Source of the DNA: Alphaproteobacteria bacterium
Lineage (GTDB): Bacteria; Pseudomonadota; Alphaproteobacteria; Caulobacterales; Parvularculaceae
Assembly (NCBI GenBank): GCA_016125455.1
Contig: WGLS01000026.1
Coordinates: forward strand, 1-64,000
DNA length: 64,000 bases
Direction of reading: 5' to 3'
How positions within the stretch are numbered: the first letter of the stretch is position 1; each line of letters starts with the position of its first letter. The translations under genes were made by a program, and so were the position numbers. Of this stretch, positions 1,463 to 20,572 are shown piece by piece. The notes beneath the pieces were generated by a model. That model saw only the letters and a program-made list of their open reading frames with translations, made no database searches and was not told where the DNA came from.

Positions 1463-2389
1463 ATGACCGGCGTAACTATCATCAAGCGCAAGAAGATCAT
1501 TGCCGCCGGCGGGCATCACGGCGGCGCATGGAAGGTTGCGTACGCTGATTTCGTGACCGCGATGATGGCGTTTTTCCTCCTGATGTGGTTGCTGAATGCT
1601 ACGACCGAAGATCAGCGAAAGGGCATCGCGGACTACTTTGATCCTGCAATCCCGATCAGTCGGATATCTGGCGGCGGCACGGACGTGCTGTCCGGGTCGT
1701 CAATTTTTGCGGAAGACAAAGATCAAGCTGAAGATGGCGTCGGGGGGGGCAAGGGCGTGCGAGGACAATCGTCTTTGAAGGTTACCGGACCTGAAGCCGA
1801 TGCCAGAGGCGGCGCTCCGGAAGCTGATCTCCAGTCAATGGCGGGACCTGAATCGCATGCTAGTGCGATCGGGCAGGACGCACTCGCTGGAGCGAACAAT
1901 CAAGACGTTGCGCGCGACGCAGTGCTGGCGGCGGGCGAGGCCGAGGCGAAGAGGAAGATTGAGGAGGCAATTGCCGCTGGGGAAGGTGGCGAGCTTTCCC
2001 AGCATCTCTTCATGAGGCAAACGCCCGAAGGACTTGTTATTGAGATTGTTGATCAGGCCGACAAGCCATTGTTTGCGGTTGGATCGGCCGCGCCCTCCGA
2101 AAGTCTTAAGGAACTATTGGTGATCGTGGCCGAAGTTGTCGGTCAGGTCGTCAACGATATTTCAATTGTGGGACATACCGATGCATTGGCGTTTCAGAAG
2201 CGGAACGCCTATACAAACTGGGAGCTCTCCAGCGATCGCGCATTGGCCGCGAGACGAATTCTTGTCGAAGCTGGCGCGGCGGAATCACAAATTGTCGAAG
2301 TGGCCGGGAAAGCGGCTTCAGAGCCGCTTGTCGACGATCCGTACGCGCCGCAGAACCGTCGCATCTCAATCACGTTGCTTCGAAATTGA
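1463..2389 (+). CDS. motB: Flagellar stator protein MotB
   Basis: MotB pairs with MotA as the proton-driven stator and anchors it to peptidoglycan. The N-terminus has the conserved stretch GGAWKVAYADFVTAMMAFFL, with the proton-carrying aspartate at residue 29 inside the single membrane helix. A low-complexity Ala/Glu-rich linker (about 75-180) follows, then an OmpA-like domain with VGHTDA near residue 234 and NRRISITLL at the end. The length (308) is normal. motA is not adjacent but lies at 14108, so the two stator genes are split between operons. flgE follows after 92 bp. Confidence 0.95.
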   Translation: MTGVTIIKRKKIIAAGGHHGGAWKVAYADFVTAMMAFFLLMWLLNATTEDQRKGIADYFDPAIPISRISGGGTDVLSGSSIFAEDKDQAEDGVGGGKGVRGQSSLKVTGPEADARGGAPEADLQSMAGPESHASAIGQDALAGANNQDVARDAVLAAGEAEAKRKIEEAIAAGEGGELSQHLFMRQTPEGLVIEIVDQADKPLFAVGSAAPSESLKELLVIVAEVVGQVVNDISIVGHTDALAFQKRNAYTNWELSSDRALAARRILVEAGAAESQIVEVAGKAASEPLVDDPYAPQNRRISITLLRN

Positions 2390-12259: not shown

Positions 12260-12808
12260 ATGTCGACTAATGATGAAGGCAAAAAAAAGGGACTGAACCC
12301 GATGGTCGCAATGGCCGCTGCGGCCGCGATCGCCGTCGCCTCAGGCGTTGCAGCGTTTGCCTTGTCGCCTGTTGGGGGCGGGGCGGCGGAGCACGAGCCT
12401 ACGTCGAATGCCGACCATAAGGAACATGAATCGCATGGCGGCGCGAAAAGCTCTTCAAGCAGCGACGGTCATGGCAAGAAGAAGAAGCGCAAAGCCACGC
12501 ATGGCGCTGAACTGGTCTACGTACCCATTGAGCCGCTGATCGTATCGCTCGGGCCGGAGGCGGCAGCAAAGCGACTCAAGATCACGATCGTTATCGAAGG
12601 CGACGCTGCATTCGAAGATGAACTGAAGGGGCTCGTCCCTAAGTTCAGGGATGTTCTGAATACCTATCTGAGAGCTGCAGATGCGCGAGATTTTGAATCT
12701 CCCGCCGCGATGTCGCGCGTTCGCGCGCACATAGCCAGGCGATTGAAAATCGTCGCTCCCGATGAGTCGATCGAGGGTGTTCTTGTCACCGACTTTATTC
12801 TGGATTGA
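12260..12808 (+). CDS. fliL: Flagellar basal-body-associated protein FliL (copy 1)
   Basis: FliL is a single-pass inner-membrane protein that rings the stator and supports its function. It has one membrane helix (about residues 15-36) and then an unusual His/Ser/Lys-rich linker (about 45-78). The conserved C-terminal domain (80-182) has YVPIEPLIVSLGP and ends VLVTDFILD, close to the family ending LFTxFVVQ. The 182 residues are normal. A second, more diverged FliL is encoded at 20015. It heads a plus-strand operon of motor genes. Confidence 0.88.
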   Translation: MSTNDEGKKKGLNPMVAMAAAAAIAVASGVAAFALSPVGGGAAEHEPTSNADHKEHESHGGAKSSSSSDGHGKKKKRKATHGAELVYVPIEPLIVSLGPEAAAKRLKITIVIEGDAAFEDELKGLVPKFRDVLNTYLRAADARDFESPAAMSRVRAHIARRLKIVAPDESIEGVLVTDFILD

Positions 12809-12816
12809 AGGCCGTC

Positions 12817-13422
12817 ATGGAAATTATCGCAGACTTTCTTCTTTTGGCGGCATCGGCGTCCGCTTGTTTTTATTGCTATGTGCTTGGTGACAAGCTTAAG
12901 AAATTCAAGGGTACAAGGAATGGGATCGCTGCAAGCTTAGCATCGCTGACGAAGTCAGTTGATGATGCGCAAACGACAATTGCGCATGCTCATCTTGCTG
13001 CGGAACAGTCTGTTGAAAAGCTTGGACCGTTACTTGAAAATGCTAAAGTGTATGAAGAAAAACTTCGTCAGGAGCTCACTGCTGTTGAGGCGGCGCTTGA
13101 TGCTATTCTGGCCGCAAGAAGCGACGCAATTCGGGCCTTGATTATCGACAATGCGAATCTCACAGAGACTCTTGCAGGAGTTGATGCGACATCTGAATAC
13201 GAAGACACCGCCGATAACCAACTAAATGCCGGTACGGAAGAGGAGGCCCCCGCCAAGGACTTGGGTGAAGCGGCAAGGCAAGAGCAGATTAGCGCCGCAA
13301 AGCCGACGGCATCAGAATTTGACGTCGATCTCGACGATGAAGATTTCGAGATTGAATGGAACGGATCGCAAGAGGGTAAGCCCGAGCGCGACATTATTTC
13401 GATTGCCGGAGATGTTGCATGA
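12817..13422 (+). CDS. DUF6468-like flagellar-locus protein
   Basis: The protein has an N-terminal membrane helix (about residues 5-25) followed by a cytoplasmic or periplasmic coiled-coil region (30-115) and an acidic C-terminal tail with DVDLDDEDFEIEW. This architecture resembles DUF6468 proteins found next to fliL and motA in alphaproteobacterial flagellar clusters; the link is remembered, not computed. ATG 12817 is chosen because GAAGG precedes it; a TTG at 12805 is in frame. It starts just after fliL and ends in an ATGA overlap with the MotE-like gene. Its exact function is unknown. Confidence 0.6.
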   Translation: MEIIADFLLLAASASACFYCYVLGDKLKKFKGTRNGIAASLASLTKSVDDAQTTIAHAHLAAEQSVEKLGPLLENAKVYEEKLRQELTAVEAALDAILAARSDAIRALIIDNANLTETLAGVDATSEYEDTADNQLNAGTEEEAPAKDLGEAARQEQISAAKPTASEFDVDLDDEDFEIEWNGSQEGKPERDIISIAGDVA

Positions 13423-14012
13423 GACCCGGCGCGCTCCTCATCATCTCAATGGTCTTCACGCTAGCTTTCGTGACGCGAGCAATCGGTACGGTGTCCGACG
13501 TTCGAGATGGCGCGACGGCCGAAATTTCAGGCGGTAACGCCAGTCATGGAAGCGATCCCCTACCTGTGAGATCAGACGATTTCGAGCCGCCGGAGCACCC
13601 AGACGGAAATGATGCGGATTTTGTGTCACTCGCAGGAATGATCAAAGAACGCACCAATGAAATACAACGCCGAATTGATGAGTTAAATGAACGTGAGAAT
13701 TTGCTTGCCGCTATCGAGTCCCGGGTTGATGAAAAACTCCAGCAACTCGCAGCGGCTCAGAGTGCGTTGGCTGAAACCGCTGCGCGGGTCGATGCGGCGT
13801 CTGAGAGAGATATCATGGCCCTGGCCGATATGTACGCCAACATGAAACCGCAACAAGCTGGCGCAATCTTCAATGCGATGGAACCAAGTTTCGCCGCAGG
13901 TTTTCTGACGTCAATGCGGCCAGAGACGGCCGCGGCGATACTAGCGGGTATGGAGCCACAGAAGGCATACGCCGTCAGCGTAATTATCGCCGGTCGCAAC
14001 ATGAATAACTAA
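13419..14012 (+). CDS. MotE-like flagellar periplasmic chaperone/motor protein
   Basis: The N-terminus is a signal or anchor helix (about residues 5-22). A coiled coil follows (about 75-125, with INELNERENLL-like heptads), and then an MgtE-N/FliG-type helical domain (130-190) with ALADMYANMKPQQAGAIFNAM and two later repeats of METAA-ILxGMEP type. This is the domain plan of MotE, which helps fold the periplasmic partner MotC in rhizobia. ATGA overlap with the gene upstream shows operon structure. motA follows 95 bp later. The MotE call is by architecture. Confidence 0.7.
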   Translation: MRPGALLIISMVFTLAFVTRAIGTVSDVRDGATAEISGGNASHGSDPLPVRSDDFEPPEHPDGNDADFVSLAGMIKERTNEIQRRIDELNERENLLAAIESRVDEKLQQLAAAQSALAETAARVDAASERDIMALADMYANMKPQQAGAIFNAMEPSFAAGFLTSMRPETAAAILAGMEPQKAYAVSVIIAGRNMNN

Positions 14013-14107: not shown

Positions 14108-14974
14108 ATGAGCGCGATAGTCGGAATAGTCGTCGTTCTTGCTATGGTCTTTGGTGGGTACATCATGGCCGGCGGCAAAATGGAGATTATTCTTCACTCC
14201 TTGCCATATGAAATGATGATCATTGGCGGCGCCGCGGTCGGAGCATTCATCGTTGCAAATGACTTCGCCACGATTAAGCATACTGGCGGTGATCTCGCTC
14301 AAATGCTTGCGGGTCCGAAGTGGAAAAAATCGGACTACCGGGATTTGATTTGCCTCTTGTATGAGCTTGTCGTTGTTGCGCGCCAGAGTCCGGTCGCCAT
14401 CGAAGAGCACATTGAAAATCCAGAAAGCTCAAGTGTGTTCGGTAAGTATCCGAAGATTGCGAAAGACCATGTTTCCATAGATCTTATCTGCGATACGATA
14501 CGAAGTATTATGATGAATTTCGATAATCCACACCAAGTAGAAGAACTCTTCGACAAGCAGCTGGATGCGCTTGCTGAGGAAAGTCAGCACGGAGCCCATG
14601 CGCTGCAGAATATGGCCGATGCGCTTCCGGCGCTCGGCATCGTCGCCGCCGTGCTCGGTGTCATCAAGACAATGGCGTCAATCGACAAGCCGCCGGAAGT
14701 GCTTGGTCAGATGATCGGCGGAGCGCTGGTTGGCACGTTCCTAGGCGTGTTCCTCGCGTACGGTGTTGTCGGGCCTTTCGCGACCAAAGTGGGGGCCATG
14801 CGAAAGAGCGAGCAACAATTCTATCGGCTTATCAAGGAGACGCTCGTTACCAGCCTTCAGAAGCATGCCCCGGCGATCTGCGCTGAGGTTGCAAGGCGCA
14901 ATGCACCGCACCACTACCGTCCGTCATTTTCAGAGCTTGAGGATGCATTGCGGGAAATTGGGACATCGTCATGA
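14108..14974 (+). CDS. motA: Flagellar stator protein MotA
   Basis: MotA forms the ion channel ring around MotB and contacts FliG. The sequence has the four-helix plan, with an opening VGIVVVLAMVFGGYIMAGG, and conserved prolines at residues 174 (ADALPALGIVAAVLG) and 223 (LAYGVVGPFA). The large cytoplasmic loop (about 70-165) has charged residues for FliG contact. The 288 residues are typical. It overlaps the start of the following 731-residue gene by ATGA, so the two products are probably made together. motB is in another operon. Confidence 0.96.
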   Translation: MSAIVGIVVVLAMVFGGYIMAGGKMEIILHSLPYEMMIIGGAAVGAFIVANDFATIKHTGGDLAQMLAGPKWKKSDYRDLICLLYELVVVARQSPVAIEEHIENPESSSVFGKYPKIAKDHVSIDLICDTIRSIMMNFDNPHQVEELFDKQLDALAEESQHGAHALQNMADALPALGIVAAVLGVIKTMASIDKPPEVLGQMIGGALVGTFLGVFLAYGVVGPFATKVGAMRKSEQQFYRLIKETLVTSLQKHAPAICAEVARRNAPHHYRPSFSELEDALREIGTSS

Positions 14975-17166
14975 TGCGTTGCATTGCAGTCGTTCTTGCT
15001 TCGTCGTCTCTGGCATGGGGCGTTCCCAATGCCGGCGCAACCGAACGCGTTGGCGTCGCTGGCGGCGAGCATGATAAATACTCAAGGGTCGTCATTGATG
15101 CCGATAGTCGACCCTTCCGGATTGAATATGATCGGCGTCGTGCCTCGATCATTTTCCCTGGCGCTGACCTGGAGTTCGTTGTTGACCGGATTAACGCAAG
15201 TCAATCCGCTCATCGTGTCTTGAAGGCGAGGTCAGTGAAAGTTCCCGACGGCGCGAGGCTTGACTTGGAGCTGACATGCGATTGCGGCGCCAAGTTTGAG
15301 TATGCGCGTTCCGGCCGTTTGGTTGTAGACATTGCCGAAAGCTTTTCGCGCATCGATGGACTCGGTGCGCCGCGTCCGCTTGATGTCGCTTCGCGCGGTG
15401 CAGCCGATACAGCTCGAACAGAAGCTGCGCTTCCGGTGCAGGCTGTTGCGGACGAGATTCAGTCATCAACGATCGTCTCCAATGATGACAAACTAAATCG
15501 AGCGCGATCGAAGATGCTTGAGATGCTATCGCAAGCGGCAACTGAAGGGATCGTGGAATTTCGAAAGGATGCGGAACCCGACGGCCAGACAGACAGGAAT
15601 TTCTCGATCGATCCGCTCCTCGTTGAGACCGAGGCGCCGGACGCGCACATTGCCAAGCCCACGCCGGAGCCGGTGACTGAAGATAGCTTCGAGACTGAGC
15701 CGCTCTCATTGAGGGCGCAGTTGCGAAGTGACTGCCGTCCGGATGACTGGTTCTTCGGTGGGGTTGAAGATGACCTGGCCAATCCAATACAGGCGGTTGA
15801 GCGGCTTCAAACTGAACTTGTTGGAGAGTTCGATGTTGTTGATATCGAAGTCCTTCGAAAACTTTACTGGAGCTACATCGTGATCGGTTTTGGAGATGAG
15901 GCGCGAGCACTCGTCAACACGTTTCCAATTTTGTCTAATGATGTGCCGTTGATGGAGGACATTGCGAGAATTATTGCCGAGCGGCCCGTCGAGTTAGATC
16001 GAAATCGAGGCGGGTTGCTCGCTGGGGATTCCTGCACAGGGTTCCATGGGTTATTTCAGGCTCTTGCCTTGGCGGAGAGTACGCCCGAAGGCCCAATCGA
16101 GTTTGCAAACCATAGCGTAGACGCAGTTTCGGCCATACCCGCCACCATGACGGCGGATGTCGCGACTAGACTTGGCCTGGCGGCCGTGAGGGCAGGCGAT
16201 TGGTCGCTTGCGGGGCACTTAAAGCGAGTCGCTGAACTCGCCGGAGCGGAGTCGGGGTCGTTCCAGTTTTTGGCCGCTCACATCGACAAACATCGTGGAC
16301 GCGAAGATAAAGCGCGCGCAAGGCTTCAAATGCTGGCCGAAGGTCAAACAGAACGGCAAGTTGATGCTTTGTTTGAGTTGGCGGACGCCTTCACCGAAAA
16401 TGGCGAGGCGCCGCCGGAGGGGTTTGCTGAAGATATGGGCATGGTTTCCGCTATTGCTGACGATCCGTTTATTCGTCAGCGCGCGACATTGCTGGAAGCG
16501 CGTACCCTCATGAGTGAAGGTGAATTCTCATCAGCATTTAGACAGATAATCCGGACCTATCGTGAAACGCCCGGCGCGAGGCGCGGCCTTGCGGTCGCAG
16601 GTCGAGAGTTGCTTCTGAACGCAATGGACAGTGGCACCGAGGAGGCGAAACTGGCCGGATTGGATGCGTACATTGACTTTCAAGAGTTTATCGACAGCTC
16701 TGACTTGGGTTCAGATACGGAAGAATTGCATTTGGTGGCAGCAAATGTCGCGCTCGAATATGAACTGCCAAATGTTGCGAAGTATGCGCTCGAACGCGGG
16801 CGCTTGAGTGGGGAGATTGCGGAGAATGTTCGAGGGCAAATTGATAAATTGGCGAGCGTGACCTCGAGAGATCTTTCGACAATTGCGGAGGAAACCCGTG
16901 CAAGTTGGACGGAGGAGATGCAGAACATCGCGCTATCCGTCGACTCAAAGTCTGCCGAAGAAAGGGCGATCGCTGCATATCTCATGCGGCGCGATGAACT
17001 ACCTACAGGAACATTGGAAGAGTTGGAAAGTACAGGCTCGGATCTAGCGACGCTCTTTTCGAACGGCAATCCAACGAAGGTAAAATCTGCAGCGGATGCG
17101 ATGGTGGTCGCCAATCGCGTCGGTATCGAGCTGAAGCTTTTGCAGGGAGCGGCAGATGGCAGATAA
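14971..17166 (+). CDS. Large periplasmic protein of unknown function in the motor operon
   Basis: I do not recognise this 731-residue product. It has a signal peptide (about residues 1-24, cleavage near NAGA-TE). A small beta-rich domain (about 28-115) follows, with KYSRVVIDADSRPFRIEY and a paired Cys in LTCDCGAKF; it resembles AMIN-type cell-wall-targeting domains. Next is a low-complexity linker (120-235) and a long all-helical region (240-731) that looks like TPR/Sel1-type repeats. It is translationally coupled to motA upstream and overlaps flgF by 11 bp, so a role at the stator or rod in the periplasm is likely (inference). It may be a counterpart of rhizobial MotC, but it is much longer. 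Confidence 0.75.
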   Translation: MMRCIAVVLASSSLAWGVPNAGATERVGVAGGEHDKYSRVVIDADSRPFRIEYDRRRASIIFPGADLEFVVDRINASQSAHRVLKARSVKVPDGARLDLELTCDCGAKFEYARSGRLVVDIAESFSRIDGLGAPRPLDVASRGAADTARTEAALPVQAVADEIQSSTIVSNDDKLNRARSKMLEMLSQAATEGIVEFRKDAEPDGQTDRNFSIDPLLVETEAPDAHIAKPTPEPVTEDSFETEPLSLRAQLRSDCRPDDWFFGGVEDDLANPIQAVERLQTELVGEFDVVDIEVLRKLYWSYIVIGFGDEARALVNTFPILSNDVPLMEDIARIIAERPVELDRNRGGLLAGDSCTGFHGLFQALALAESTPEGPIEFANHSVDAVSAIPATMTADVATRLGLAAVRAGDWSLAGHLKRVAELAGAESGSFQFLAAHIDKHRGREDKARARLQMLAEGQTERQVDALFELADAFTENGEAPPEGFAEDMGMVSAIADDPFIRQRATLLEARTLMSEGEFSSAFRQIIRTYRETPGARRGLAVAGRELLLNAMDSGTEEAKLAGLDAYIDFQEFIDSSDLGSDTEELHLVAANVALEYELPNVAKYALERGRLSGEIAENVRGQIDKLASVTSRDLSTIAEETRASWTEEMQNIALSVDSKSAEERAIAAYLMRRDELPTGTLEELESTGSDLATLFSNGNPTKVKSAADAMVVANRVGIELKLLQGAADGR

Positions 17167-17875
17167 CATGATCAGTGCGGCTCTATCACGCCAGGCTGGA
17201 CTGCAAAAGGAGTTGCTTGCGGTTGCCAACAACATCGCAAACGCAAACACGACCGGCTATCGAGCGGAAGGCGTCATCTTTAGCGAATATGTGAAGGCGC
17301 TTGACGGCGCCGACAGCATCTCAATGACGCGCGCGAATGCGCATTCGATTGACCTGACCCAAGGCGAAATAATCGCAACCAAAGGGCAATTCGATATTGC
17401 AATTGCCGGCGAAGGTTTCTTCCTCTTGGAGGGCAATGACGGGCCGCGCCTGACGCGCGCCGGGGTATTCGCGTTGAACGAGCAAAGTGAGCTTGTCGAC
17501 CCGGAAGGGCGAAAGGTTCTCAATGAGGGGGAAGGGGCAATCGCAATACCGCAAGGCGCCAAGTCGGTGACTTTCTCGCCGACAGGCGAAGTCAGCGTGG
17601 ACGGGCAGGTCCTCGGTCGCTTAGCGGTCGTTGTCGCGCCGCCTGAGGGCCTGGTCCGCGAAGGCGACAATCTCTTCCGCTCCGACGCTGAATACGAACC
17701 TGCCGAGGACTATGCCATTATCCAGGGCGCCGTTGAGGGGTCGAACGTGAATTCAATGAACGAATTCGTGCGCCTGATTGAGGTGCAACGTGCATACGAG
17801 GGCACAAAAGGCTTCCTCGACAAGGAGGCTGAGAGGCTTCGAAACCTCGTTCAGACACTTGGCCGTGCGGAATAA
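17156..17875 (+). CDS. flgF: Flagellar proximal rod protein FlgF
   Basis: FlgF is a proximal rod subunit. It has the N-terminal signature LLAVANNIANANTTGYRAEG, the middle block GQFDIAIAGEGFFLL, and the C-terminal motif VNSMNEFVRLIEVQRAYEG. The 239 residues match FlgF. The start lies inside the end of the preceding gene (11-bp overlap, GGAGCGGCAG as ribosome site), and flgG follows 30 bp later, the usual flgF-flgG pair. Confidence 0.94.
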   Translation: MADNMISAALSRQAGLQKELLAVANNIANANTTGYRAEGVIFSEYVKALDGADSISMTRANAHSIDLTQGEIIATKGQFDIAIAGEGFFLLEGNDGPRLTRAGVFALNEQSELVDPEGRKVLNEGEGAIAIPQGAKSVTFSPTGEVSVDGQVLGRLAVVVAPPEGLVREGDNLFRSDAEYEPAEDYAIIQGAVEGSNVNSMNEFVRLIEVQRAYEGTKGFLDKEAERLRNLVQTLGRAE

Positions 17876-20014: not shown

Positions 20015-20572
20015 GTGCCAAAGCTCTTTGCAATCGTGTTGGTACTGATCGGCGCTATTGGCGGCGCTGCTGGAGGGTACTTCGTAAAGCAGTCGGGTGG
20101 CAGTGCGAAGGCTCACGCCGGAGAAGCAACGAATAAAAGTAGCGCCGATGCCCACTCCGATCAGGGTCACAAGCAAGCAAAACAGCCGAAGGACGACGGT
20201 CATGGTGGCAAGAGTGACGGTGAAGCGGCATCTTATGGCTTTAATAATGGTCTGAACTATTTCAAGTTTAGTCGTCAGTTTGTAGTTCCAATTATTGTAG
20301 ATGATGGCGTGAAGTCGTTGGTCCTCCTCGACCTTAATCTTGAAATGGACGCGAGCGCCGCGGAAAGCTTTTATGTGCGCGAACCAAAGCTTCGCGATGC
20401 GCTCATGAACGAACTATTGGACATTGCAAATCAGGGGCGCTTCAATGGCGTTCTCACCGATCGTCGAAATTTGGAACTGATTCGAGTAGATCTCTTGAAT
20501 ACCATGCACGATGTGGAGGGGGAGAGTGTCCACGACGTCTTGATTCTAGATATAATGCGTCAGGATCTGTAG
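20015..20572 (+). CDS. Second FliL-like protein (copy 2)
   Basis: The product has an N-terminal membrane helix (about residues 4-24) with a GxxG-rich face, a His/Lys-rich linker (about 35-70) and a C-terminal domain resembling FliL (about 85-185) with YFKFSRQFVVPIIVDD, LLDLNLEMD and VHDVLILDIMRQDL. It starts at GTG 20015, eight bases after the flgH stop. It is clearly related in plan to the FliL at 12260 but shares little sequence with it by eye. Placement behind flgH is common for a FliL paralogue in alphaproteobacteria. It probably acts in the inner membrane at the motor. Confidence 0.75.
   Translation: MPKLFAIVLVLIGAIGGAAGGYFVKQSGGSAKAHAGEATNKSSADAHSDQGHKQAKQPKDDGHGGKSDGEAASYGFNNGLNYFKFSRQFVVPIIVDDGVKSLVLLDLNLEMDASAAESFYVREPKLRDALMNELLDIANQGRFNGVLTDRRNLELIRVDLLNTMHDVEGESVHDVLILDIMRQDL

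Follow-up and report, generated by a model that had tools for sequence, protein, structure and literature searches.

What does the gene between motA and flgF encode in the flagellar cluster of this alphaproteobacterium? The window, that is, the whole stretch of 64,000 nucleotides analysed here (Caulobacterales, Parvularculaceae; GenBank assembly GCA_016125455.1, contig WGLS01000026.1), carries at this place one unbroken frame of 731 codons (14971-17166, plus strand), hereafter X, which is present as a single copy in its genome. Its ATG sits within the ATGA that closes motA, and its stop overlaps the start of flgF by 11 bp; both overlaps were given in an initial annotation made from the letters alone, and their coordinates are confirmed. 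Searches of Pfam, NCBIfam and PDB sequences with X returned nothing significant, thus we tested its family membership by gene order, profile-profile comparison and predicted folds. Although the initial annotation took the product to be an unknown protein, X clearly matches a characterised flagellar family: it is very probably the Parvularculaceae version of the flagellar motor protein MotK, and its most likely role is that of an AMIN-anchored arm which joins the MotE ring to MotB and helps to recruit, position or open stators. We regard it as an ordinary, fast-evolving motor part of a recently described family (MotK, CP4 and CC_2058), and an apparent unknown thereby drops out of the flagellar operon.

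The genes in the window are ordered fliF (divergent), fliL, a pflI-type gene, motE, motA, X, flgF, flgG, flgA, flgH and a second fliL-like gene. The stretch fliL-pflI-motE-motA-X is the order published for motK (RSWS8N_12065) of Cereibacter (Rhodobacter) sphaeroides, whose Fla2 operon reads fliL2-pflI-motE-motA2-motK (PMC10954123, PLoS One 2024). Compared with that operon, flgF-flgG-flgA-flgH-fliL come after X in the window, as they do in Paroceanicella profunda (Paracoccaceae), where a divergent fliF followed by fliL-pflI-motE-motA-X-flgF-flgG-flgA-flgH-fliL makes the arrangement identical to ours. Three genomes of family f27 carry fliL-pflI-motE-motA-X followed by genes of about 260, 695, 260 and 362 amino acids (aa), with X homologues matching our profile hidden Markov model (HMM) at E 2e-38 to 1e-56; by size and order, these loci correspond to the Phaeobacter inhibens cluster fliL-CP2-CP3-motA-CP4-sltF-flhA-fliR-flhB (PMC12363192). 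CP4 (PGA1_c35690) adjoins motA in that cluster as X does, whereas the locus continues with sltF-flhA-fliR-flhB and not with flgF; assigned by gene order, CP4 belongs in all likelihood to the MotK family. In order-mates of family f3, probably Caulobacteraceae judging from their content, the order is fliL-orf-pflI-motE-X with an X of about 970 aa, which fits the published arrangement CC_2059-CC_2058. The constant neighbours of X are therefore fliL, pflI, motE and usually motA, while flgF varies. In plasmid-borne clusters of Roseobacteraceae (Sulfitobacter, Loktanella, Alloyangia, Salipiger, Marinovum and Roseivivax), which are other flagellar types, motA is followed by small unrelated genes, thus the motA-X pair is not universal.

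A single-sequence search with X matched 19 of 61 genomes (the window's own and 60 relatives). The neighbourhood survey that had been proposed found the motA-X-flgF order in 18 other Parvularculaceae loci: in every one of the 18 loci read, an open reading frame (ORF) of 589-821 aa sits between motA and flgF and overlaps motA by 4 bp (15 loci) or 1 bp (3 loci), so X is not a chance ORF. The 11-bp overlap with flgF, together with the occurrence of AMIN domains in amidases and pilus secretins, might suggest that X serves in rod or P-ring assembly, aiding FlgF or the rod through the wall, and is next to flgF by chance. We consider this highly improbable, since another gene set follows X in family f27, the Caulobacter-like X follows motE with flgF divergent, and motK mutants still assemble filaments (PMC10954123). 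Accordingly, of the suggestion that X is a periplasmic scaffold for stator or rod, the rod half finds no support, and the stator half is the best-supported one, as the homologous MotK resides in the periplasm, binds MotE and MotB2 and is required for rotation.

Sequence comparison places X in the same family. By BLASTP, X matches the Paroceanicella X with E 2e-10 over the AMIN part and 1e-9 over the linker and helices. Using a profile of 13 AMIN-bearing Parvularculaceae X proteins as the hhalign query, we obtained E 6.9e-51 (residues 2-724) against the Rhodobacterales proteins encoded after motA, 1.7e-12 (residues 15-679) against the f3 proteins encoded after motE, 1.5e-23 against a large alphaproteobacterial AMIN-TPR set, and 8.7e-50, 1.7e-17 and 1.7e-23 against AMIN-less X sets from genus g7 and families f2 and f5, respectively, while ten unrelated TPR proteins used as controls gave E 0.02-0.49. 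The N-domain alone matches the Rhodobacterales set (1.2e-19), the large set (4.8e-13) and, weakly, the f3 set (2.9e-4). In the MotK study, BLAST revealed no similarity of C. sphaeroides MotK to the Caulobacter proteins, and the authors relied on the structure of the N-domain to group them (PMC10954123); our profile comparison provides sequence support for MotK-position, CP4-position and CC_2058-type proteins as one family. Within it, CC_2058/FssB of Caulobacter crescentus, an AMIN and TPR periplasmic motility protein encoded after motE (PMC7885107, PMC10954123), appears to be a more distant relative: unlike X, the CC_2058-type proteins of f3 genomes are about 970 aa long, lack the cysteine pairs described below and are not encoded next to motA.

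The same comparison bears on the suggestion that X is a distant, much enlarged MotC. On this reading, the motility protein that Rhizobiaceae have in the periplasm would have gained an AMIN domain. MotC of Sinorhizobium meliloti is periplasmic and TPR-rich and has been described as a partner of MotE, as X would be, and a review argues on structural grounds that MotC and MotK are diverged homologues (PMC13023049), so that a distant relationship at fold level is conceivable; moreover, the X forms without AMIN (580-635 aa) have a plan similar to that of MotC. However, the X family aligns with MotC from S. meliloti, Sinorhizobium, Shinella and Phyllobacterium only at hhalign E 0.46, within the range of the unrelated TPR controls, and the AMIN-less sets do so at 0.06-0.42; the large AMIN-TPR set alone has a weak match to MotC (E 2.5e-4, 141 residues). 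X does not match the NCBIfam MotC model, which S. meliloti MotC matches at 1e-212. In addition, MotC has no AMIN domain, and motC comes after motB in Hyphomicrobiales, whereas X comes after motA. We therefore consider the MotC assignment unlikely, though less so than the rod reading. As a side observation, NZ_CP021802.1, labelled as S. meliloti psymB, holds a motB-like gene and motC; we take these two genes of S. meliloti to be chromosomal, and the plasmid label or the assembly may be off.

The domain plan predicted for X agrees with membership in the MotK family. Its N-terminus, which the initial annotation had read as a signal peptide, has a hydrophobic core and AGA before residue 24, a signal-peptide-like sequence that is kept in the family alignment and forms a helix (2-15) in the model. 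The full model, built from a shallow alignment of two sequences only (the window and L021) with a mean predicted local distance difference test (pLDDT) score of 59, has nine strands (25-122), one helix (172-191) and, from about residue 245 onwards, TPR-like helices. When the N-domain was modelled alone (pLDDT 85, predicted template modelling (pTM) score 0.81), its best fold match was AmiC (4bin; Z 12.2, root-mean-square deviation 2.7, 102 residues), followed by the AMIN domains of PilQ (Z 10.9-11.9), while unrelated folds, namely small heat-shock proteins, reached Z 8.3 and below. The AMIN-like domain previously placed at 28-115 is thus upheld as a nine-stranded AMIN fold at 25-122, although the Pfam AMIN match of X is not significant (E 0.31). 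The TPR-like region placed at 240-731 likewise holds, with helices at about 245-728 and a best Z of 14.2 to TPR domains over residues about 353-632; X of the window alone has no significant TPR Pfam match, whereas its relatives have them. Invariant residues in the alignment of Parvularculaceae X proteins include C255 and C355, and a CxC motif is present in 17 of the 17 AMIN-bearing Parvularculaceae and Rhodobacterales proteins; neither the motif nor the helical-domain pair occurs in any of the 20 large CC_2058-type proteins. In the window the CxC lies at 15277-15285 and the codons of the helical-domain cysteines begin at 15733 and 16033, the spacing of the pair being about 83-102 residues across the MotK branch. 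The CxC and the helical pair of this branch could possibly form disulfides.

The initial annotation held that no standard flagellar gene has this plan, yet MotK and PflA share it (PMC10954123; PMC11870540). MotK of C. sphaeroides (652 aa, as compared with 731 aa for X) has a signal peptide, an AMIN-like N-domain, a low-confidence linker and TPR-like helices, like X. It is periplasmic, its mutants are flagellated but paralysed, and it binds MotE and, more weakly, MotB2 (PMC10954123); its polar localisation depends on MotA2/MotB2. Mutants of CP4 in P. inhibens are non-motile (PMC12363192). PflA of Campylobacter jejuni (9HMF, 9LEQ) has a similar plan of AMIN-like sandwich, linker and TPR superhelix, and in Campylobacterota it is reported to be the spoke that connects the FlgY E-ring with the stator ring (PMC12222027, PMC11870540). 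It binds PflB through its linker, and deletion of the sandwich and linker abolishes this pairing (PMC11870540). In a Foldseek search with the whole X model, the first of 350,542 PDB chains was 9hmf_K (E 2.4e-7), from the C. jejuni periplasmic flagellar scaffold (PMC12222027), and the next matches were generic TPR proteins (E 2.5e-4). PflA did not turn up in the PDB sequence search with the X family profile.

By analogy with these characterised relatives, X would be exported by Sec, and its linker helix and TPR superhelix would form an elongated periplasmic arm that docks on MotE, the E-ring protein encircling the MS-ring, and on the periplasmic region of MotB. The arm would then recruit, position or open MotAB stators, and cells without X would be expected to build flagella that are unable to turn. 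Somewhat more tentatively, the AMIN domain may hold the protein to peptidoglycan, and the arm may have the geometry of a spoke.

Several observations weigh against this interpretation. Residues 133-390 of the X model are largely of low confidence. The model superposes poorly on 9hmf_K, with a template modelling (TM) score of 0.18; the PflA N-domain matches the AMIN model of X only at Z 6.2, which is background level; and chain K is itself taken to be PflA from its length, as its 773 residues fit mature PflA 16-788, the construct named in PMC11870540. Since the TM score is low and the PflA N-domain is at background, the link between X and PflA is suggestive rather than proven. The tie of X to C. 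sphaeroides MotK itself runs via gene position and family relatives. Furthermore, same-position homologues in some relatives lack the AMIN domain, so wall anchoring may be non-essential, and in five loci of genus g3, which keeps motA, motE and flgF, motA runs directly into flgF with no X.

In a sample of 200 genomes of the order, FlgI was found in 193 and a MotA_N match in 195 (191 of these above the cut-off), while the X profile matches 74; PF01618 was unusable as a marker of flagella because it also catches ExbB/TolQ. The profile matches 29 of the 41 Parvularculaceae genomes, the others being nine of genus g3 and G003, G027 and G201. The latter three, and the weak matcher G019, are without classical MotA_N (E above 1e-5), thus X and classical motA are missing together there, which speaks for the MotK reading. 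These four genomes have FlgI but no full X; they apparently possess a second flagellar system whose MotA-like protein is a different one. Two FlgI genes occur in several further genomes.

In genus g3, no relocated homologue was found in eight genomes (best E 0.02), so it would be an overstatement to call X fixed in the operon; X seems to have been lost from an otherwise intact g3 operon. MotE was found in 29 of 29 genomes tested and is diverged in g3: a Parvularculaceae MotE model scores g3 MotE at 2e-12 to 1e-5, as compared with about 1e-42 to 1e-44 for Rhodobacterales MotE, with normal motA scores, and g3 MotE is short where motE is in the locus. This divergence fits relaxed constraint after the loss of X, as a correlation in one genus. 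One might extend the g3 case to the window and suppose that X, though in the operon, has become dispensable or is in decay in this lineage, as X evolves about 10 times faster than MotA (path from the window to L022 1.17 vs 0.11). However, all the AMIN-bearing Parvularculaceae relatives that we examined retain the frame, the operon overlap, the four cysteines and the linker helix, and the invariant residues point to continued selection; we regard decay as improbable in the extreme, on a par with the rod reading.

The X proteins of genus g7 (six loci) and of families f2 and f5 (eight loci; f5 comprises g19 and g30) are 580-635 aa long and have no AMIN domain. They have the signal peptide and the helical arm, and their motE does not adjoin motA. 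The helical-domain cysteine pair is kept in all of them and the linker helix in g7 and f5, while the linker-helix motif pattern gave no match in the f2 proteins. AMIN-bearing X proteins form a supported clade (100/100), and the MotA tree groups the AMIN-less lineages with g3 (92/92); the two trees are compatible with one early loss of AMIN and a later loss of the gene. The MotA proteins of g7 and g3 do not group with the other f1 MotA proteins, thus transfer of the flagellar cluster is possible. By analogy with the PflA linker that binds PflB, we tentatively raise the idea, which we hold to be somewhat doubtful, that the parts of MotK/PflA-type arms are separable in nature and that the linker helix, rather than AMIN, is the essential docking element. 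If this were true, the AMIN-less and X-lacking relatives would be a natural deletion series probing the bridge between E-ring and stator. In the papers that we consulted we found neither AMIN-less orthologues, nor loss in a Parvularculaceae genus, nor the cysteine pair that marks the MotK branch. Only the forms without AMIN and the losses are mildly surprising among our results, and their occurrence in close relatives makes the role of the E-ring-stator bridge testable in alphaproteobacteria. In loci L135-L146 of other alphaproteobacteria, motE and small genes, one of which is often a MotB match, precede genes for X-like proteins about 850-1300 aa long; some of these proteins have several AMIN-profile matches, which suggests domain multiplication in the X family.

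Table 1. Positions of X, its domains and the neighbouring motor genes in the window
Feature	Coordinates	Strand	Basis
X (motK-family ORF), 731 aa	14971..17166	+	ORF call; homologues found by sequence and profile comparison
Putative Sec signal peptide, residues 1-24	14971..15042	+	Sequence inspection (hydrophobic core; AGA preceding residue 24)
AMIN-fold domain, residues 25-122, with CxC motif (C103, C105)	15043..15336	+	Model pLDDT 85; fold matches
Conserved linker helix, residues 172-198, core ARSKMLEMLSQAATEGIVEFR	15484..15564	+	Alignments and model; kept in most AMIN-less relatives too
TPR-like helical superhelix, residues 245-728	15703..17154	+	Model, fold matches; TPR Pfam matches in relatives
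C255, first of the invariant MotK-branch cysteine pair	15733..15735	+	Alignments
C355, second of the invariant MotK-branch cysteine pair	16033..16035	+	Alignments
motB, stator partner of motA, elsewhere in the same cluster	1463..2389	+	PF13677, E 1e-19
fliL	12260..12808	+	PF03748, E 2e-11
pflI-type gene (DUF6468-like; CP2 position)	12805..13422	+	PF20072, E 7e-6, slightly under cut-off; position as in PMC10954123
motE (FlgY/FlbB-type E-ring protein), presumed partner of X	13419..14012	+	PF03448 MgtE_N, E 3e-6
motA, stator	14108..14974	+	PF20560, E 2e-35
flgF, proximal rod	17156..17875	+	PF22692, PF06429

A few further observations concern the neighbours of X (Table 1). A simple pattern search found no full CtrA-type site upstream of fliL. 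The second fliL-like gene (20015-20572), which closes the operon after flgH, has no Pfam match and is kept in relatives. MotE of the window also matches the NCBIfam model collar_FlbB, a spirochete collar protein, at E 1.5e-9, which is below the curated cut-off; this match is in agreement with the proposed homology of MotE, FlgY and FlbB.

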